Positions 7,391 to 22,055 of a stretch of 64,000 nt of DNA are shown here, in pieces. Source of the DNA: Cytophagales bacterium (GTDB lineage: Bacteria > Bacteroidota > Bacteroidia > Cytophagales > Spirosomataceae); assembly GCA_013298215.1 (NCBI GenBank), contig JAAFKE010000005.1:1-64000 (forward strand). Direction: 5' to 3'. Every line of letters begins with the position of its first letter. The stretch's first letter is position 1. The notes under the pieces were generated by a model. It worked only from the letters and a program-made list of their open reading frames with translations, searched no databases and had not been told where the DNA came from. The position numbers and the translations under genes were made by a program.

Positions 7391-7627
7391 CTAAACGGCC
7401 ATTCCTTTGGCGCGTGCTTCTTTCAGCACCACCTCAATACCTTTTTTGTTGATTGTCCGCATCACCGACGTGGCCACTTTCAGGGTGATCCATTTGTCTT
7501 CTGATGGTACATAGAAGCGTTGCTTTTGCAGGTTTGGATAAAACTTGCGCTTCGTATGGTTATTGGCGTGGGATACGTTGAAACCAGTTGCCGTTCTTTT
7601 TCCTGATATTTGACAAACCTTTGCCAT
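7391..7627 (-). CDS. rpmB: 50S ribosomal protein L28
   Basis: A 78-residue ribosomal protein of the large subunit. The N-terminus [20 protein letters not shown] and the following [17 protein letters not shown] block are the L28 signature. A CxxC zinc pair is absent, as in many L28 proteins of this phylum. It is very basic, of normal length, and transcribed alone here, without the rpmG (L33) that often follows it in other Bacteroidota. It has its own promoter (7675-7705) and terminator (7331-7366). Confidence 0.95.
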
Positions 7628-7674
7628 AATTGCCTTGTATTAGTATTTCGTTAATAAATTTCAAAATGAGGGTG

Positions 7675-7705
7675 CAAAGGTGCGCAAAAAATACGGGAAT
7701 CACAA
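7675..7705 (-). promoter_or_regulatory. Probable promoter of rpmB
   Basis: On the minus strand TTG (7705-7703), 20 bases, then CACCTTTG (7682-7675), one base off TAnnTTTG. It lies about 50 bases before the rpmB ATG. The arrangement fits the Bacteroidota primary-sigma promoter, but the -7 element is imperfect. Confidence 0.5.
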
Positions 7706-7768
7706 AATTGTACCGAAAAATAAAAACTAAGCCGTATTTTTTGCCAATTAGGGGCAAATTCGCTTATT

Positions 7769-8299
7769 TTGTGTTCCAAGTTAATAGCTGATTCGTTGAG
7801 CCAAAAAAAACTTTTCAATACAAAAGACCTCGCCGCGTACTTTCTGGTAGCGGGTGCGGGCGTGGTTGTTCAGTATATTGCGGGGAGTTTTGCGGCAGAT
7901 TATTGGGGCTTAGACTTCGAGTCGTCGGTTAGTTTTGGGTATGCTGTCTCATTTTTTGTGGGTTTCGCGCTCACCAAATACTTTGCTTTCGATGTGCGCA
8001 ACACCCAGCAGACGCGCCGCGAAATGGTCAAGTTTGTGATGGTTGCCACACTGTCGGGCTTCATCACGGTGGGCGTGTCGAGCGTAGCCAAAGACGTGAT
8101 CGGCTCATTTGTTAGACCCACCATTTTCGAGATTCCACTCTCGATTATTCCCCCCAAAATGAGGCAGATCGACATCAACCGAACTTTGGCGTTGCTGGTA
8201 GGCGTTGGCTTTAGTTTCATAAACAATTTTGTGTTGCACAAAACCTTTACCTTCCGCAGCACTGGTTTCTACGATCGGCTGAAGACCTACCTGAAATAA
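7769..8299 (+). CDS. GtrA-like small membrane protein
   Basis: A 176-residue membrane protein with four hydrophobic segments (about residues 23-42, 55-75, 88-110 and 145-165) and short basic loops. The end of the second span (VGFALTKYFAFDV) and of the last one (FINNFVLHKTFTFR) match the paired 'N/T-x-W/Y-x-F' ends of GtrA-family proteins, which are thought to help flip polyprenyl-linked sugars. An extended loop between spans 3 and 4 (VRPTIFEIPLSIIPPKM) is not usual. No ATG is available near the front: TTG at 7769 or TTG at 7796 are candidate starts, and the true one is uncertain. No glycosyltransferase is adjacent. Confidence 0.65.
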   Translation: MCSKLIADSLSQKKLFNTKDLAAYFLVAGAGVVVQYIAGSFAADYWGLDFESSVSFGYAVSFFVGFALTKYFAFDVRNTQQTRREMVKFVMVATLSGFITVGVSSVAKDVIGSFVRPTIFEIPLSIIPPKMRQIDINRTLALLVGVGFSFINNFVLHKTFTFRSTGFYDRLKTYLK

Positions 8300-12520: not shown

Positions 12521-13142
12521 ACGACCCGCTTTGATGTTGCTCGACGGCGTGGGGACTGGTGTGCTCGGCCAGGTTGTAGCAGCGTCGGCAGCGGGCTTCG
12601 TAGGCGTTGGTTTCGCCGAGCAGCACGCGCTCCGTGGAGGCTGCGGTGCGGTATGAGTAGGAAGCAATGTCGCCGCAGACCACGCAAATGGCGTGTACTT
12701 TGGTCACGTATTCGGCTACGGCCAGCAGCTGGGGCATCGATCCGAAGGGCTTGCCGAGGAAGTCCATGTCCAAACCCGCCACGATCACGCGTTTGCCAGC
12801 CGTGGCCAGTTTCACGCACACATCCACCAAGGCGGTGTCAAAAAACTGGGCTTCGTCAATGCCCACCACGTCGCAGTTGCCCGCCAACAGCAAAATTTCT
12901 TCGGCGGCCTGCACGGGCGTAGATCGAATGGCGTTTTGGTTGTGCGACACAATGTTGGTTTCGTTGTAGCGGGTGTCGATGCTTGGTTTGAAAATCTCGA
13001 CCCGCAAACGCGCTATTTTAGCGCGGTTCAATCGTCGGATCAGTTCCTCGGTTTTGCCCGAAAACATGGAGCCGCACACTACTTCTATCCAACCAGCGCG
13101 CAACTGGCTGGGGTTTCTAACGGGGTTTGGTTCAATAAACAT
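12510..13142 (-). CDS. tdk: Thymidine kinase
   Basis: A 210-residue type II thymidine kinase that phosphorylates thymidine with ATP in pyrimidine salvage. The P-loop [11 protein letters not shown] is near residue 27. DEAQFF (metal/catalytic) is at about 95. The lasso and substrate loop with [12 protein letters not shown] are near 120. Four zinc cysteines lie in CVVCG (about 150) and CRRC (about 184). It is the first gene of a pair with porZ, overlapping it by 11 bases, and diverges from tatC across a 130-base gap. Confidence 0.95.
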
Positions 13143-13211
13143 TCTCTCTAAAACAACAATTTGGTGGTAAGATTAAGCTGGTACAATGCCGTCCGTTTTG
13201 CGGGTAGGTTA

Positions 13212-13241
13212 TTGTTGCCAACCGATAAAATCGTAACTTTG
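13212..13241 (+). promoter_or_regulatory. Promoter of tatC (Bacteroidota type)
   Basis: TTG at 13212-13214, exactly 19 bases, then TAACTTTG at 13234-13241, a full match to TTG-N19-TAnnTTTG. The expected transcript start near 13246 leaves a leader of about 27 bases before the tatC ATG. No Shine-Dalgarno sequence is visible. Confidence 0.75.
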
Positions 13242-13272
13242 AACATTATCAACCCAAAAGTACCGATTAGGA

Positions 13273-14124
13273 ATGGCATTAGATCAAGATTTTGAAAAAG
13301 AGACCGAAGACGGGTCTGAAATGGGGTTTTTAGACCACCTCGAAGAACTTCGTTGGCATATTATCAGGGCGGTGGCGGCCATTTTGATTTTTACGATTGC
13401 GGCTTTTGTGTTCATAAACGACATCTACCACGGCGTTATTATGGGGCCGTCGCGGCCCGATTTTTGGACTTACCGAATGCTCTGCAAAGTGGCCGCGCTC
13501 ACGGGCGCGCAGGGGCTTTGCATCGATAAATTAGATTTCGAGCTGCAAAGCATCGAACTTGGGGGGCAGTTTTCCATGGCCATGGTGTCGGCGTTGGTCA
13601 TTGGGCTCTTGTTTGCTTTTCCCTACGCCTTCTGGGAAATCTGGCGTTTTATTAAACCTGGTTTGCGCGGCTCCGAAAAAACCATCACGCGCGGGGCGGT
13701 TTTCTACGTCACGGCCCTGTTTATGTGCGGTGTTTTGTTTGGGTACTACATTGTGGCACCGTTGGCCATCAATTTTTTAGCGACTTTTAAGTTAGACGAA
13801 AGCATCAAAAACCAGTTTAGCGTCAATTCTTACGTGTCGCTGTTGGCCGTCCTGACGCTCGCCTGCGGGCTCACCTTCCAACTGCCAGTGGTTGCTTTTG
13901 TGTTGTCGCGGGTGGGCATCATCAACCCGCGCCTCATGCGCGAGTACCGGCGGTACGCCTTCGTGGCCATTCTGATTATTGCGGCCATCATCACGCCGTC
14001 GCCCGATGTACTGAGCCAGATTTTGGTTTCAATACCGCTTTGGATACTTTACGAGATCAGTATTTTTGTGTCTGCCTACGTCGAGCGCGCCAAAAAAGCG
14101 GATGCCGAAGCCGAAACGCCGTAG
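13273..14124 (+). CDS. tatC: Sec-independent protein translocase TatC
   Basis: A 283-residue polytopic membrane protein, the twin-arginine signal receptor of the Tat system. The N-terminal FLDHLEELRWHIIRAV motif (about residues 19-34) is the TatC hallmark. Six hydrophobic spans follow, with PYAFWEIWRFIKPGL near 120 and the LTFQLPVVAFVLSRVGI block near 200. It has about 20 residues more than minimal TatC, mostly an acidic N-terminus. No TatA/B gene is in the window. Plausible clients here are the Gfo/Idh enzyme at 2791-3912 and, less surely, the Rieske protein at 22258-22782. Confidence 0.96.
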   Translation: MALDQDFEKETEDGSEMGFLDHLEELRWHIIRAVAAILIFTIAAFVFINDIYHGVIMGPSRPDFWTYRMLCKVAALTGAQGLCIDKLDFELQSIELGGQFSMAMVSALVIGLLFAFPYAFWEIWRFIKPGLRGSEKTITRGAVFYVTALFMCGVLFGYYIVAPLAINFLATFKLDESIKNQFSVNSYVSLLAVLTLACGLTFQLPVVAFVLSRVGIINPRLMREYRRYAFVAILIIAAIITPSPDVLSQILVSIPLWILYEISIFVSAYVERAKKADAEAETP

Positions 14125-14216
14125 ATAGCCGCCATTATAAAAACGACCCAAAAGTAAAAGAACATTTATACTATTTTCAGTACGGCGATGTGCTTTTTTT
14201 GTAACATTGTAAAAAT

Positions 14217-14255
14217 AAACGCCTATCAAGTAGCCAAACAATAGACAGGCGTTTT
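14217..14255. other. Stem-loop between tatC and the DUF6978 gene
   Basis: AAACGCCTATC at 14217-14227 pairs with GACAGGCGTTT at 14243-14253 with one mismatch, loop about 15 bases. Only four Ts follow, so it is a weak terminator candidate for tatC. It lies 33 bases before the DUF6978 start codon and could instead act in that leader. Confidence 0.35.
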
Positions 14256-14287
14256 GAAAACGAAAATCGACAAAATAAACATAATAC

Positions 14288-14725
14288 ATGAGCGAATTAT
14301 CTCAATCAGAATTTGACTATTTAATAGGTCAAGAAAAAAGGTTTGAGGACGAATCAACGATATTGCTTGGCCCAGCACCTTTGCAGTGGAGCAAGAAAAT
14401 TCAATCTACTTCTACAAAAGACACATTCTCACTTGACTTTTACAGAGGAACTTTCCGATTAGAAAAATATACCTACAATCATCGCTTCAAGCAAACTACG
14501 GTATTGATGCGATTTGACTCTTACGGAGAGCACTCAAATCCAGATGGAGAAAGAATTAGCGGTCATCATGTACATATCTACAAAGAAGGCTTTGGCGATA
14601 AATTTGCCTATCCAGCGTCTAACTATGGCATAGAGAGTTCTGACACTATTGAGGTCGTTCTGCAAAAAATATTGGTATATTGCAACATTAAAATAATACC
14701 ACCCATTGAAATCCCGATGAATTAA
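14288..14725 (+). CDS. DUF6978 family protein (uncharacterised)
   Basis: A 145-residue soluble protein without signal peptide. The core (about residues 55-105) has the series TFRLEKYTYNHR, LMRFDSYGEHSNPDGERISGHHVHIYKEGFGDK and an ending FAYPA. I recognise this as the DUF6978 pattern, with several conserved histidines (H80, H92-93, H95) that could bind metal or RNA; the function is unknown. It is followed after 5 bases by a DUF1828/1829 gene, a pairing that recurs in bacterial genomes. Codon use is strongly A/T-biased compared with tatC or the DUF1080 gene on either side, which suggests recent acquisition. Confidence 0.7.
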   Translation: MSELSQSEFDYLIGQEKRFEDESTILLGPAPLQWSKKIQSTSTKDTFSLDFYRGTFRLEKYTYNHRFKQTTVLMRFDSYGEHSNPDGERISGHHVHIYKEGFGDKFAYPASNYGIESSDTIEVVLQKILVYCNIKIIPPIEIPMN

Positions 14726-14730
14726 ATAAA

Positions 14731-15495
14731 ATGGAGTTCCAAAAAATTATCGACGACTACATCAAATTTGTAAAAGATAATACAATAGTGAAAACTATTG
14801 CCGATGGACGTTTATGCTCAGTAACAACGCCATTTTTAGACAGGCATAACGACCATTTAGAAATTTACATCGAAAAAAAAGGAGACAAAATAAAGCTAAC
14901 TGACGATGGATACACCATTGCAGACTTAAAAATGTCTGGACTTGAAATAAACTCACCAAAAAGAGAAAGCATACTTCGAACAGTATTGAATGGCTTCGGT
15001 GTTAAAATGAACGGGCATGATGAGCTATTTATTGAAGCAACGCCTGCAAACGTAGGGCAGAAAAAGCATTATCTTTTACAGGCGATTTTGACGGTAAATG
15101 ATATGTTTAATTTGGCTTCTGAAACAGTACAATCTTTGTTCAAGGAAGATGTTGAAATGTATTTCAAAAGCAATGATATTTATTACTCTAAAGACATTAA
15201 AATATCTGGAAAAAGTGGATATGACCATAACATTGACTTTTTGGTAACAGCTACCCGAACTAAACCTGAGCGTTTCATAAAAATAATAAACAATCCTAAA
15301 AAAGATTCGGCACTTGCTTCGATAATGACACTCACAGATATTTCTCGGGAATCACAGCCGAAAAAATTTGTCTTGTATAATAATTTAGAAAAGACTGTTT
15401 CTAACGACTTTGTTAGTGCGTTGGAGAGATACGGAATATATCCAATACCTTGGACAGAAAAAGAAAAGTGCCTTTACGAATTTTCATTAAATTAA
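14731..15495 (+). CDS. DUF1828/DUF1829 domain protein (uncharacterised)
   Basis: A 254-residue soluble protein. Residues 28-120 match DUF1828: TPFLDRHNDHLEIYIEKKGDKIKLTDDGYTIADL, then a GLEI/SPKRESIL stretch. Residues 150-245 match DUF1829, with DHNIDFLVTATRTKP and ending RYGIYPIPWTEKE. Both are domains of unknown function often found near restriction and toxin-antitoxin genes. The C-terminal domain has an acidic residue and lysine on adjacent predicted strands (NIDFLV... FIKIIN), reminiscent of but not matching a PD-(D/E)XK nuclease. It forms an A/T-rich operon with the DUF6978 gene (5-base gap). A two-component defence or toxin-antitoxin role is a hypothesis only. Confidence 0.78.
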   Translation: MEFQKIIDDYIKFVKDNTIVKTIADGRLCSVTTPFLDRHNDHLEIYIEKKGDKIKLTDDGYTIADLKMSGLEINSPKRESILRTVLNGFGVKMNGHDELFIEATPANVGQKKHYLLQAILTVNDMFNLASETVQSLFKEDVEMYFKSNDIYYSKDIKISGKSGYDHNIDFLVTATRTKPERFIKIINNPKKDSALASIMTLTDISRESQPKKFVLYNNLEKTVSNDFVSALERYGIYPIPWTEKEKCLYEFSLN

Positions 15496-15677
15496 CCTTT
15501 TGCTTCGATGGACATTTAATCCCGCCAACACGAAAAAAAACGAACGGTTAACATGGTATTGGCAAGAGACGTTCGGACGGAAGTGATTGATCTGTTGTAG
15601 AAAAGTCGAACAGTTGGAAGTTACTCAACACTTGAGCTTTGAAACCCCGCCCCTCGGCAATACCTATCCGATAACCC

Positions 15678-17510
15678 CTACCAGATTATTGCGTAATTGA
15701 GCGGTGTATTTGCAAGGGGGGCAATGAGCTCCTGGCCATTTTTGCCGTCGCGCACTTTTGCCGTTTGGCCTTTCACTTCGAGGTAATAAGTTTTGTCGAT
15801 GCAGTATATTTGCGCGGTCGCACCGGCGGCGGCTGGTAATGTTTCGATCTGTGCGCCTTGTGCCAGCCGATACCACAAACTGCTCGGGGCATTGGTCGCG
15901 CTGATGACCCGGTTGAGCCGCTTGTTGTCGGGGTCGGGCGTTGTTTTGTCTTCTATGCTTGCGCCGAGCGTTTCGTACTTGAAAGTAGGTTGGTTCTTAG
16001 CGTCGGTGTCGTAGCCCCTAAATCGGTAGTTTTGTGCCTCGGGGCTGGCGGTTGGCCACGCCAAACTTTCGTCGGTAAGTACGGCCATTGGGTTGTCGGT
16101 TCCCAGGTCGAGGACACTTCCGAGTGGACTGCTAAAACCGTTTCCTCGGTCGTTGAACATGGCGGTGGCATCCAAAAATCCCCCGCGCCAAACTCGCACC
16201 AAGGCTCCGTTTTCTAAATCGACCGAGTAATGCAAACCAGTTGGGTCGCCGACTGACACGCCGTGGGGTAGTTTTTTGTTGCCCACCTCTACAAAACTGC
16301 GGTGAACGACCGTTTCGGCGGCTGGCGACACCAAAATAGGATTTGTCGGGTCGGACAGCACGTAAGAATCGAGCGCGTGGAGGTTGGTGGGGCGCACACC
16401 CGGCCCGCTCATCGTTAAGCCCAGCGAGGCATACGTCCAGTTGGCATTCTTGGCATACGCGACCTCAAACGGCAAATCCCCAACTGAGAGATCGACGGAG
16501 GCGGTGTTTTCCCACCATTTCCAGGGCAATACTGTTTTACCCCCAATTTTCAAGATGGCACTTCCAGACCGGCTCGTAATGGCGAAGTAGTACTTTCCAG
16601 CCTCATTTATTGATAAAGTACCCTTGAAACGAACCAAATAATCGTTATCAGTTTTGGAATATGTATAAGAAATTCCGTTGGTGGCCTTTCCTTCTTCGGC
16701 TGGTTTTATGGTGTCGAAATTGGGTTCTTCCGAATAAACCCCCTTGTAGAGTGCATACGTGAGGCCGCTGATTTTTGGGGCGGGCTTGTTGTAATTTTGC
16801 AGCACGATGTTCCTAAATGCCACTGGGCCGTGGTCGCCCTGAATGAGCAGCGGGCCCGTGGCATTTTCGTTTTCAAGCATCGGGCCGCGCGTTGGGCCAG
16901 TTACCTCCACGTTTTCGTGAATCACCACGCCGTTAAACACCACTTTAATAAACTTGGCGTTGGCCATTTTGGCACCGCTGGCATCGAACTTTGGGGCTTG
17001 AAACTCAACTTTTAGGTGCTGCCAAAGCCCTGGTGCTTTGCAAACGTTGGTGCGGGGCGGCACGCCCTCGAAACCCTTGTAGCCAGGGCGGGTGTCGTCC
17101 CAGCGTTCGTATATGGCTCCGCAGTCGTGCACGTTTGGGTTTGTAAGCCCCCAACTATCAAGGAGTTGCAACTCGTAGCGTCCCTGAAAGTAAATCCCAG
17201 AGTTAGAGCCCTTAGCCATCATAAAGTCAAACTCCAGGTCAGCATCGCCGTGTTCGAGTTTGGTTATTAGGTTGTATTGCGGGCCATATTTGGCTTCGAC
17301 GGGGTCGTTGAGGAGAATGCCCGTGCCAGGTTTACTGGTCACGGTGTTCTTTTGGTTTAAGTCGGCCCCTACCTCGCCCACTATTTTCCAGTTGGGCGCG
17401 GCGGGTCTAAAAGCACTCAGATCGGTCAGTTCGAGCCGAACTTGAGCCAGTGCAACATCGGTGTTTAAGAAACTGCACAGCAGGATAATACGAAAAGCGA
17501 GTGTTTTCAT
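15678..17510 (-). CDS. Secreted DUF1080 (3-keto-disaccharide hydrolase-like) and PA14-like protein
   Basis: A 610-residue secreted protein with signal peptide (...NTDVALAQ, about 22 residues). Residues 30-240 form a DUF1080 concanavalin-like domain, with the typical YELQLLDSWG, YERWDDTRPGYKG and FKNIVLQNY-like ends (here FRNIVLQNY). Residues 245-385 resemble a PA14 domain (GKYYFAITSRSGSAILKIGG). The remainder (about 395-610) has VWRGGFLDATAMFNDRGNGFSSPLG, resembling segments attached to sorbosone-dehydrogenase-like proteins of Planctomycetes and Cytophagales. DUF1080 proteins are linked to glycan or 3-keto-glycoside breakdown. The gene stands alone and the substrate is unknown. Confidence 0.75.
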   Translation of the reverse strand: MKTLAFRIILLCSFLNTDVALAQVRLELTDLSAFRPAAPNWKIVGEVGADLNQKNTVTSKPGTGILLNDPVEAKYGPQYNLITKLEHGDADLEFDFMMAKGSNSGIYFQGRYELQLLDSWGLTNPNVHDCGAIYERWDDTRPGYKGFEGVPPRTNVCKAPGLWQHLKVEFQAPKFDASGAKMANAKFIKVVFNGVVIHENVEVTGPTRGPMLENENATGPLLIQGDHGPVAFRNIVLQNYNKPAPKISGLTYALYKGVYSEEPNFDTIKPAEEGKATNGISYTYSKTDNDYLVRFKGTLSINEAGKYYFAITSRSGSAILKIGGKTVLPWKWWENTASVDLSVGDLPFEVAYAKNANWTYASLGLTMSGPGVRPTNLHALDSYVLSDPTNPILVSPAAETVVHRSFVEVGNKKLPHGVSVGDPTGLHYSVDLENGALVRVWRGGFLDATAMFNDRGNGFSSPLGSVLDLGTDNPMAVLTDESLAWPTASPEAQNYRFRGYDTDAKNQPTFKYETLGASIEDKTTPDPDNKRLNRVISATNAPSSLWYRLAQGAQIETLPAAAGATAQIYCIDKTYYLEVKGQTAKVRDGKNGQELIAPLANTPLNYAIIW

Positions 17511-20240: not shown

Positions 20241-21245
20241 ATGGTAGCGGAAAAGACACTAAACCAAACATTACACGTAGCAAAATTTGCTAAGAAAGAC
20301 GAGTTCTATACCCAACTATCAGACATAGAAAGTGAATTAAAATACTACGAAAACCACTTTAAAAATAAGGTTGTTTTTTGTAATTGTGACGACCCGAGAA
20401 ACAGTAATTTCTTTAACTATTTTGCTCACAACTTTGAGAAATTAGGGTTAAAGAAGCTAATAACAATCTGTTATAAAAATCAAGAAAGAGATTTGTTTGG
20501 TCAGGATGAATCAGAAGACGCAGTGTTTCTTGAATACACAGGCGATAAAAACGAAAACAAAACCCCTAATGCCGAAAAAATTGGCTTGACCCCATTGAAA
20601 GGCAATGGTGATTTTCGCAGTAAAGAAAGCATCGATTTGCTAAAGCAAGCCGATATTGTCGTTACCAATCCACCGTTTTCGTTGTTCAGAGAATACGTTG
20701 AACAATTGGTAAAATACAAAAAAAAATTTCTAATAATTGGGAATATCAATGCAATAACCTACAAAGAAATCTTTAAACTCATTAAAGAAAACAAGGCTTG
20801 GCTGGGTATAAATATGGGTAGGGGCATTTCGGGCTTTATCGTCCCAGACTACTATGAACTATACGGAACGGAAACTCGGATTGACAATTTGGGAAATAGA
20901 ATAATTTCCCCCAATAATTGTCTGTGGCTAACAAATTTGGATACATTTAAACGACACGAAGATATTTTTCTCGCCAAAACATATTATGGTAACGAGATCG
21001 AATACCCTAAATTTGATAATTACGATGCAATAAATGTAAATAAAACCCAAGATATACCCCTTGATTATGAAGGAGTTATGGGCGTTCCGATTACGTTTTT
21101 ACACAAATACAATCCAGAACAGTTTGAGCTAATTAAGTTCAGAAAAGGGAATGACGAAAAAGATTTAGCTGTAAATGGTAAGTGCCCATACTTCAGAATC
21201 TTGATCAAAAACAAAAGACTCCCAAATTTCGATACAAAAAGATAA
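20241..21245 (+). CDS. Type II DNA adenine methyltransferase, EcoRI family
   Basis: A 334-residue N6-adenine methyltransferase of the M.EcoRI type. The S-adenosylmethionine region VVFCNCDDPRNSNFFNYFAH (about residues 44-63) and the catalytic NPPF (143-146, in DIVVTNPPFSLFREYV) are in the order seen in M.EcoRI. The protein protects the host by methylating the site cut by the downstream endonuclease, predicted to be GAATTC with methylation of the second A. Its TAA ends the base before the endonuclease ATG, so the pair is one transcript. It is A/T-rich against its neighbours, as expected for a transferred restriction system. Confidence 0.92.
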   Translation: MVAEKTLNQTLHVAKFAKKDEFYTQLSDIESELKYYENHFKNKVVFCNCDDPRNSNFFNYFAHNFEKLGLKKLITICYKNQERDLFGQDESEDAVFLEYTGDKNENKTPNAEKIGLTPLKGNGDFRSKESIDLLKQADIVVTNPPFSLFREYVEQLVKYKKKFLIIGNINAITYKEIFKLIKENKAWLGINMGRGISGFIVPDYYELYGTETRIDNLGNRIISPNNCLWLTNLDTFKRHEDIFLAKTYYGNEIEYPKFDNYDAINVNKTQDIPLDYEGVMGVPITFLHKYNPEQFELIKFRKGNDEKDLAVNGKCPYFRILIKNKRLPNFDTKR

Positions 21246-22055
21246 ATGGCAAAAAAGCAAACAGACCGATTAAGAACAGAAAAAGTAAGAGGTCAAGGGC
21301 CGAAAGAAATATTTGGAGAGAATGCACAAATACATGATAAATCAGTGAATAGTTTTTCAAAAGCAGTTTTTGAAACCTTGAAAAACGATTTCCCCAATCT
21401 TGAGTTTCGTTTCAGAGATAAGATTAAAAAAAAGGAGATCAACGAAAAACTCAATTCGGTTGATGCAAGATTAGGCGTGACTGTATTTGTTGGAAACGCA
21501 TCAATAAAACCCGATGGTGGAATTATTGAAGTGAAAGACAATGGCGACAAATGGCGTGTTGTGTTAGTCTGTGAAGCCAAACACCAAGGAAAGGACATTG
21601 AAAATATTACCAAAGGAATTTTAGTTGGTAAAAATAGCAACCAAGATTTAATGGTCGCGGGAAATGCGATTGAGCGTTCTCACAAGAACATCAATGAGAT
21701 CAGAAACTTGATGATTGATGAAAAGCACTTTCCTTATATTTTGTTTTTGCAAGGTTCAAACTTCCTGACAGAACCAATAGCCGTATTGAGGCCAGATGGA
21801 ACTGAGGTAATTTTGAAACACGATGCAGGTTCACTAAACCGCATTGACAGGCTGACTTCTGCAAATTATAGTTTGCCCATCAACCAAAATAGCTGCGCAA
21901 ACATATTCATCACCATTGATGGAAAAGCCGTTATGTTGCAAGCGGTATCAATTTACACAAAATCGACTGAATGGACTGTTGAAGAAATGTTGCCAATAAT
22001 GATGGACGTTTCAACAACTTCACTAAGAATTTTGGGTTTGACTGAAAATAAATGA
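21246..22055 (+). CDS. Type II restriction endonuclease, EcoRI family
   Basis: A 269-residue endonuclease that resembles EcoRI along its whole length (EcoRI has 277 residues). Catalytic residues are in place: SIKPDGG gives Asp90 and CEAKHQGKDI gives Glu110 and Lys112, one position off Asp91, Glu111 and Lys113 in EcoRI. The DNA-recognition block AGNAIERSHKNI (Asn140, Arg144) is identical to EcoRI's. LTSANYSLPIN and STTSLRILG also match. It most likely cuts GAATTC, though specificity is inferred. The methylase lies directly upstream with no gap, the reverse of the R-then-M order known for the EcoRI plasmid genes. No control-protein gene is seen. Confidence 0.93.
   Translation: MAKKQTDRLRTEKVRGQGPKEIFGENAQIHDKSVNSFSKAVFETLKNDFPNLEFRFRDKIKKKEINEKLNSVDARLGVTVFVGNASIKPDGGIIEVKDNGDKWRVVLVCEAKHQGKDIENITKGILVGKNSNQDLMVAGNAIERSHKNINEIRNLMIDEKHFPYILFLQGSNFLTEPIAVLRPDGTEVILKHDAGSLNRIDRLTSANYSLPINQNSCANIFITIDGKAVMLQAVSIYTKSTEWTVEEMLPIMMDVSTTSLRILGLTENK

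Follow-up and report, generated by a model that had tools for sequence, protein, structure and literature searches.

A DUF6978 and DUF1828/DUF1829 Gene Pair in a Cytophagales Genome Is a New Member of a Widespread, Mobile Candidate Phage-Defence Pair

Introduction

What do two short, adjacent genes whose products carry domains of unknown function do in a bacterial chromosome, and do they act together? The question is raised by a locus in a Cytophagales bacterium (GenBank assembly GCA_013298215.1, contig JAAFKE010000005.1, positions 1 to 64,000), a stretch of 64,000 nucleotides hereafter termed the window, in which a gene for a DUF6978 protein (gene A) is followed by a gene for a protein with DUF1828 and DUF1829 domains (gene B). 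A first-pass annotation had singled out this pair as a candidate for an undescribed system. The features concerned are as follows:

14288-14725, + strand: gene A, DUF6978 / PADLOC PDC-M24A, 145 aa, with PF22398, PDLC04538, and phrog_17771 matches; proposed effector
14731-15495, + strand: gene B, DUF1828 and DUF1829 / PADLOC PDC-M24B, 254 aa, with Pfam, PDLC04539, and phrog_5059 matches; proposed holder and sensor
14761-15123, + strand: segment of B on the DUF1828 side, type III secretion chaperone matches of the structural model
15118-15492, + strand: B residues ∼130-254 (DUF1829), predicted PD-(D/E)XK nuclease fold, canonical ExK absent
14510-14575, + strand: codons of the conserved cluster of A, namely R75 (14510-14512), H82, N84, H94, and H96 (14573-14575)
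14217-14254, no strand: inverted repeat with 11-nt arms and a 16-nt loop, between tatC and A

Composition and Surroundings of the Gene Pair

Both A and B are real open reading frames of the window and are separated by five bases. Their G+C contents (0.375 for A and 0.337 for B, compared with 0.491 for the window) agree with the earlier description of two A/T-rich genes five bases apart. The domain names given in that description also hold by Pfam: DUF6978 (PF22398) matches A over the entire model (positions 1-133 of 133, E 7e-33) and is the sole family above the Pfam cut-off in this protein, while B matches DUF1828 at residues 33-122 (E 4e-28) and DUF1829 at residues 160-244 (E 9e-22). The characterization of the DUF6978 protein as histidine-rich stands only in part: histidines account for 5 of its 145 residues, which is not a high overall content, but they are clustered and conserved.

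The immediate neighbors are housekeeping genes, as had been stated, with a TatC gene upstream (13273-14124, + strand) and a gene for a 3-keto-disaccharide-hydrolase protein downstream on the opposite strand (15678-17510), and a single place was found for each of A and B in the window's own genome. The arms of the inverted repeat between tatC and A read AAACGCCTATC and GACAGGCGTTT, and this element could be the tatC terminator or an operator of the pair. The terminator scan made no terminator call there, the promoter scan gave little excess (7 matches, compared with 5.2 ± 2.4 in shuffles), and the Rfam search of 13000-16500 returned nothing informative. In 27 tatC-bearing relatives, neither the thymidine kinase gene nor the hydrolase gene was found within ∼1.5 kb on either side of tatC, and thus no empty site could be defined at tatC. 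Farther downstream, 4.7 kb from the DUF6978 pair, lies an EcoRI-type restriction-modification pair (20241-22055, + strand) with Pfam matches to EcoRI_methylase (PF13651, E 2e-134) and the EcoRI endonuclease (PF02963, E 8e-120); it is A+T-rich, as is the DUF6978 pair, and its endonuclease start follows immediately after the methylase stop.

Database Listing

PADLOC-DB already lists both genes as the candidate system PDC-M24 (M24A and M24B), where PDC denotes "phage defence candidate" (as given in PMC11514479). The M24A model (PDLC04538) matches A over residues 1-142 of 145 (E 2.2e-39), and the M24B model (PDLC04539) matches B over residues 3-248 (E 1.1e-88), with membership judged here by these model matches and by adjacency (5 bases) rather than by PADLOC's own system rule. 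Both proteins also belong to PHROGs families of unknown function (phrog_17771 on A, E 1e-16; phrog_5059 on B, E 2e-73). The pair had thus already been put forward as a candidate, and the window copy is a new member of a listed, very widespread, and mobile candidate phage-defence pair. A search of the open-licence literature, with supplements outside its range, found no paper characterizing PDC-M24 or the DUF6978 and DUF1828/DUF1829 pair; DUF6978 is named a single time, where a table gives it as the name of a gene (PMC13210130), and DUF1828 is mentioned in passing (PMC10821479; PMC7970244). PDB sequence searches with the two proteins gave no match at a meaningful E-value, and the NCBIfam search gave sub-threshold matches only.

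Partnership and Co-inheritance

Gene neighborhoods were tabulated from both sides of the pair. The B-led set derives from one scan of GTDB species genomes with two short peptide patterns, which located 359 places with a B relative, of which the best 80 were kept. A lies directly upstream of B in 73 of these 80 loci: 71 have an open reading frame with the motif HxN...HxH that ends at the start of B, and A is also present in L047, where the contig end cuts it, and in L083, where it has an unusual start. A broken A is kept in five further loci (L069, L086, L102, L113, and L120), and the remaining two have a 25-residue trace of A at most (L071) or begin at a contig edge (L081). The spacing between A and B in the 71 pairs is -4 in 46, -1 in 10, +2 in 6, and other values in 9, such that the genes overlap (-4 or -1) in 56 of 71, whereas the window copy has a 5-base gap instead. 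The pair shares with toxin-antitoxin systems its make-up of two small coupled genes.

For the A-led set, 395 Bacteroidota genomes, the window's own among them, were scanned for DUF6978; it has 30 places in 25 of them, and 22 genomes exceed the cut-off. B adjoins A at 27 of these places, two others are at contig ends, and one is a sub-threshold match without B. DUF1828 occurs more broadly, at 62 places in 53 of the 395 genomes. Furthermore, the distances among A proteins and among B proteins are correlated across 72 pairs (r 0.89; the best of 1000 permutations reached 0.21). A and B are partners that form one unit, usually translationally coupled, which bears out the earlier impression that the two proteins look like partners; the outcome named at that stage as refuting, an absence of conserved co-occurrence, is contradicted from both directions (73/80 and 27/30). 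We infer that the two proteins form a complex.

Distribution and Mobility

Among the best 80 of the 359 B relatives, hosts include Bacteroidota, Planctomycetota, Acidobacteria, Proteobacteria, Nitrospirae, Chloroflexi, and Actinomycetes, as well as Bacillota, Armatimonadetes, Elusimicrobia, WOR-3, WWE3, and Methanophagales archaea. Within this range the distribution is patchy: of 59 genomes, three have DUF1829 (the window's own and those of two relatives), and DUF6978 exceeds the cut-off in the 22 of 395 genomes given above. DUF1828 additionally reaches the cut-off in the Escherichia coli control genome. The window B shares 60-67% identity with copies in Bacteroidales, a Flavobacteriaceae, and Paracnuella (best match 67%), and only 33% with the copy in its own family (G030), while two Methanophagales copies share 62-67% identity with their nearest bacterial copies. 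The pair is mobile and has spread among very different bacteria, archaea, and some viruses.

B matches were also recovered in 10 of 72,556 plasmid records and 18 of 50,697 phage records; the scan of viral_contigs with B confirmed no relative. Eighteen of these 28 plasmid and phage records were opened, and A is full-length in 16 of them, interrupted in L222 (phage UPMK_1, where the pair lies beside leukotoxin genes), and reduced to a remnant in L226. An integrase or tyrosine recombinase gene occurs at most three genes downstream on the same strand in all 11 copies from bacterial phages, a satellite phage, and phage-gene-rich plasmid records (L007-L009, L011, L013, L221, L223-L225, L227, and L228), a set to which neither L222, with no integrase in the stretch, nor the archaeal virus L010, with its integrase on the other strand, belongs. 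In 9 of the 11, the annotation places a repressor or HTH regulator upstream, the exceptions being L013 and L223. Other carriers are a conjugative IncP plasmid (L006), a haloarchaeal plasmid (L012), and a haloarchaeal virus (L010). In the Lactobacillus prophage Lj965 (L007), a gene annotated as "superinfection exclusion" (7505-8029) is the second downstream of the pair and precedes the integrase. In Streptococcus thermophilus phages, the superinfection exclusion gene ltp lies in the lysogeny module and is expressed in the prophage state (PMC3952083); other phages thus have such a gene in the module in which the pair is found, and this was counted in favor of the anti-phage reading.

Defence-Gene Neighborhood

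Genes of at least 150 aa within ∼4.5 kb of the pair were scanned with PADLOC models (E 1e-15) in 20 Bacteroidota loci and compared with those of 18 control stretches from the same genomes. After 14 copies of A had been removed by hand from 105 near genes, the remaining 91 matched 239 models, with the single-gene scan covering 20 of the 91, and the 102 control genes matched six other PADLOC models, one gene each and no restriction model among them. In L155, a type I specificity gene lies upstream of the pair, and HEC-01A, HEC-01B, and a type I restriction enzyme (HsdR) lie downstream, all on the same strand; HEC-01A/B is itself another PADLOC candidate. In L164, HsdM is upstream and HsdS and PDC-S05 are downstream on the same strand, and A itself is broken there (L034). 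In L157 the pair is followed by genes for a type III restriction enzyme and a DNA methylase, and in L172 it is directly preceded by an Eco57I-type methylase gene (by Pfam only). Four of the 20 Bacteroidota loci therefore have restriction genes next to the pair, which in two of them (L155 and L164) is embedded in a type I operon. The probability of 4/20 against 0/18 by chance is ∼0.07 (hypergeometric sum), where L172 is counted by Pfam and the controls were scanned by PADLOC only; the association with restriction genes is small. Among the 25 of 138 families listed, the most frequent families near the pair are mostly ordinary. The PADLOC candidate models for both genes and these restriction neighbors count in favor of a defence role, which is supported by context. 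The earlier reading of the context as pointing to defence or toxin-antitoxin was right, with a toxin-antitoxin nature of the pair putative.

Protein A: Fold and Conserved Residues

The predicted structure of A is beta-rich and well defined (pLDDT 90.5, pTM 0.83), and no clear solved relative of DUF6978 was listed by Foldseek (best E 0.28) or VIA (best Z 5.3 over 91 residues at 4.5 Å), the VIA list being a re-examination of Foldseek's rows that excludes nothing. All 66 A proteins of a first alignment share R75, H82, N84, H94, and H96, and these residues remain at 100% in 90 A proteins after the addition of a second clade and phage copies, with K17 at 93%; left out of the 90 are the A proteins of the phages Javan249, Javan197, and Javan642, which break the pattern, and those of L003 (which contains masked bases), L005, L012, and L013, which keep it. 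The aligned A proteins share 25-55% identity with the window A. The invariance of the four H/N residues is partly circular in the 71 named loci, because A was accepted there by a pattern containing HxN...HxH; that pattern had no part in selecting R75, the 11 second-clade proteins, or the copies from the window, phages, plasmids, and G030. The three upstream open reading frames of at least 90 aa that fail it (L069, L086, and L113) are truncated or frameshifted.

The second clade was observed in Bacteroidota (L134, L135, L143, L147, L149-L151, L153, L154, L229-L231, and others). Its A proteins are diverged, with the motif RRYNGxSHxHxN...HIH, and are mostly missed by the Pfam DUF6978 model, and its B proteins are diverged in the C-terminal half. 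Many of the 62 DUF1828 places in the 395 genomes belong to this clade.

Protein B: Predicted Folds and Conserved Residues

All 79 B proteins that were aligned have both DUF1828 and DUF1829, and the 18 families that they match at E 0.1 do not include DUF3037. The model of B has a pLDDT of 86.3 and a pTM of 0.50, the latter making the placement of its domains relative to one another uncertain. For residues 10-131 (local pLDDT 70-92), structural comparison gives type III secretion chaperones at Z 7-9, aligned over ∼90-112 residues (3cxj 9.2, 8q8o 9.1, 1xkp 8.9, CesT 8.5, and Spa15 8.1), and AmyR of the YbjN family, which is described as having a chaperone-like fold (PMC5398634), was matched by Foldseek only (E 0.2). 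DUF1828 is thus predicted, on moderate scores, to be a secretion-chaperone-like domain. Residues 130-254 match PD-(D/E)XK proteins over ∼110 residues (1y88 Z 11.3, Can2 11.2, Cdn1 10.6, and VC1899 10.2), with further matches to EcoRII (Z 9.1), NucC, and McrC at Z 7.1-9.1 and Foldseek matches to VC1899 (E 1e-3) and Card1 (E 2e-3), and DUF1829 is accordingly predicted to adopt the PD-(D/E)XK nuclease fold.

Across 103 B proteins, P34, D58, L66, Q117, and F137 are conserved at 100% and D41 at 99%, while E139 (91%), D140 (96%), and D169 (95%) are nearly so. The strand-2 aspartate of the PD-(D/E)XK fold is present as D169 in the window B, and it is replaced by N or P in some full-length copies. The (D/E)xK motif of strand 3 is absent: residues 181-186 of the window B read RFIKII, and the segment is hydrophobic in the alignment rows shown for both clades. 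Judged from the model and alignment, DUF1829 of B looks catalytically impaired.

Broken Copies and Variant Lineages

Decay of the pair was surveyed in 61 Bacteroidota loci. A is broken or absent beside a full-length B in seven (L019, L034, L131 with no trace of A, L138, L141, L142, and L234), B is broken with A present in three to four (L035, L237, and L239, plus the fusion L025), both are broken in two (L144 and L145), and A was not found in five (L173, L232, and L240-L242). In L025 (G256:C20), A and B are fused in frame by an apparent deletion that joins the start of A to B from residue ∼77. The pattern has no clear asymmetry and does not decide which protein would be toxic. A toxin-loss reading of the five broken A genes among the 80 loci was likewise rejected as decisive, because those loci were chosen for good B matches; the 61 loci give 7 versus 3-4.

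In one lineage of streptococcal phages (L011, L224, and L225; Javan249, Javan197, and Javan642), A is without H94 and H96 and keeps R75, H82, and N84, and B has Asn at position 169, both proteins being otherwise complete. With H94/H96 and D169 lost in this lineage, neither the A nor the B center is kept everywhere. This joint substitution, read from the sequences, hints that the sites of A and B may work together, and a joint loss of activity or a changed function is possible in this lineage.

Proposed Mechanism and Alternative Explanations

The reading that we would narrowly call probable is that the pair is a mobile two-gene anti-phage module of the abortive-infection or toxin-antitoxin type, in which A would be the effector and B its holder and sensor. 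Its observed foundations are the pair itself, its coupling, co-inheritance, patchy mobile distribution, and prophage position, and the polar cluster of A; to these the predicted folds are added, and the complex, the identity of the effector, its trigger, and its target are proposed. B would hold A through its chaperone-like N-terminal DUF1828 domain, and its C-terminal PD-(D/E)XK-like DUF1829 domain would read nucleic acid or infection. Upon infection, A would be released or switched on. With its Arg/His/Asn/His/His center, to which Lys17 is added, it would act as a small enzyme, most probably a nuclease, and stop phage growth at the expense of the cell (abortive infection). The chemistry assigned to A is a guess, since its fold matches nothing solved. 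A is favored as effector on account of its near-invariant polar cluster and the incomplete nuclease site of B, and through the precedent of a DUF1829 protein that partners a HipA kinase in a validated defence system. A more specific proposal, which we regard as possible yet doubtful, is that DUF6978 represents an unrecognized enzyme fold, an R-H-N-H-H effector held inactive by a chaperone-like protein with a dead PD-(D/E)XK sensor, and that DUF1829 would be a reusable sensor or holder for different effectors.

The roles might instead be reversed: B would act as an unusual PD-(D/E)XK nuclease through E139/D140 and D169, with A serving to sense for it, activate it, or inhibit it. The fold of DUF1829 is matched by active defence nucleases (Can2, Card1, NucC, McrC, and EcoRII), the three acidic residues are the highly conserved ones reported above for the 103 B proteins, D169 and the H94/H96 of A were lost together in one phage lineage, and seven of the 61 loci keep a full-length B where A is broken or missing. 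We nevertheless consider this reversal somewhat unlikely: strand 3 is without (D/E)xK in the rows shown for either clade, some full-length copies have N or P in place of D169, and DS-6B, also a DUF1829 protein, is the partner of an active kinase and not the effector according to the hypothesis of its authors (PMC13092281). It is less probable still that the pair serves lysogeny or the maintenance of mobile elements (control of a repressor or integrase, or plasmid or prophage addiction) rather than defence. Plasmid carriage and the nearby integrase in 11 of 11 temperate-phage-type copies opened would fit such a role, but the window copy lies between housekeeping genes, ordinary families also predominate among those seen most often around 20 other chromosomal copies, two copies are embedded in type I restriction operons, and PADLOC picked the pair as a defence candidate; addiction and defence are, moreover, not mutually exclusive.

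Carriage by phages and a conjugative plasmid, together with the restriction genes near some copies and the EcoRI-type system 4.7 kb away in the window, could also be read as counter-defence, e.g., anti-restriction. In the opened phages, however, the pair shares its strand with the repressor and integrase and stands away from the lytic genes, and this function appears very improbable to us. A role in ordinary metabolism, or a chance meeting of neighbors, has the housekeeping genes next to the window copy in its favor, but A and B are coupled in bacteria, archaea, and viruses alike, and DUF6978 exceeds the cut-off in 22 of 395 genomes (own genome included), which leaves this explanation a negligible likelihood; we rejected it, as the adjacency counts (73/80 and 27/30) and the patchy distribution contradict it.

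Significance and Comparison With Known Systems

To the existing database entry, this analysis adds predicted folds, a residue map, a second clade, the prophage position, restriction-operon neighbors, and co-inheritance numbers. It also names candidate functional residues and sites, namely H82, H94, and H96 of A, D140 and D169 of B, and the DUF1828 surface as a candidate site for holding A. If B, as a dead nuclease, indeed both keeps hold of a new-fold enzyme and senses infection, two long-standing DUFs would be explained at once, in a pair that is very widespread (359 B relatives in one scan, across bacteria, archaea, and viruses).

The closest known entity is PDC-M24 of PADLOC-DB, whose models both window proteins match near full length; no difference from it was found, and the entry is itself a candidate. 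For the separate domains of B, likeness lies in predicted fold: DUF1828 resembles the type III secretion chaperones and AmyR, although in B this domain is fused to a nuclease-like domain, and no secretion genes were seen in the stretch of the window examined; DUF1829 resembles Can2, Card1, EcoRII, NucC, and McrC, but is without the ExK half of the active site. The proposed order of a toxin-like gene followed by a chaperone-like partner recalls AvrRxo1-Arc1, in which the toxin gene comes first and a small chaperone-antitoxin second, with low G+C and varied neighbors (PMC4938570). AvrRxo1 belongs to the zeta-like toxins, Arc1 is small and helical, and the comparison is an analogy only. In DS-6/HipAD, an experimentally validated phage defence, a HipA kinase is paired with the DUF3037-DUF1829 protein DS-6B, and the authors hypothesize a toxin-antitoxin (PMC13092281). 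There the partner of DS-6B is a HipA-family kinase, whereas in the window it is DUF6978 with no such kinase, and the other half of the window B is DUF1828 where DS-6B has DUF3037; what the two systems share is a DUF1829 domain in the partner protein, DS-6B there and B here (E 9.4e-22).
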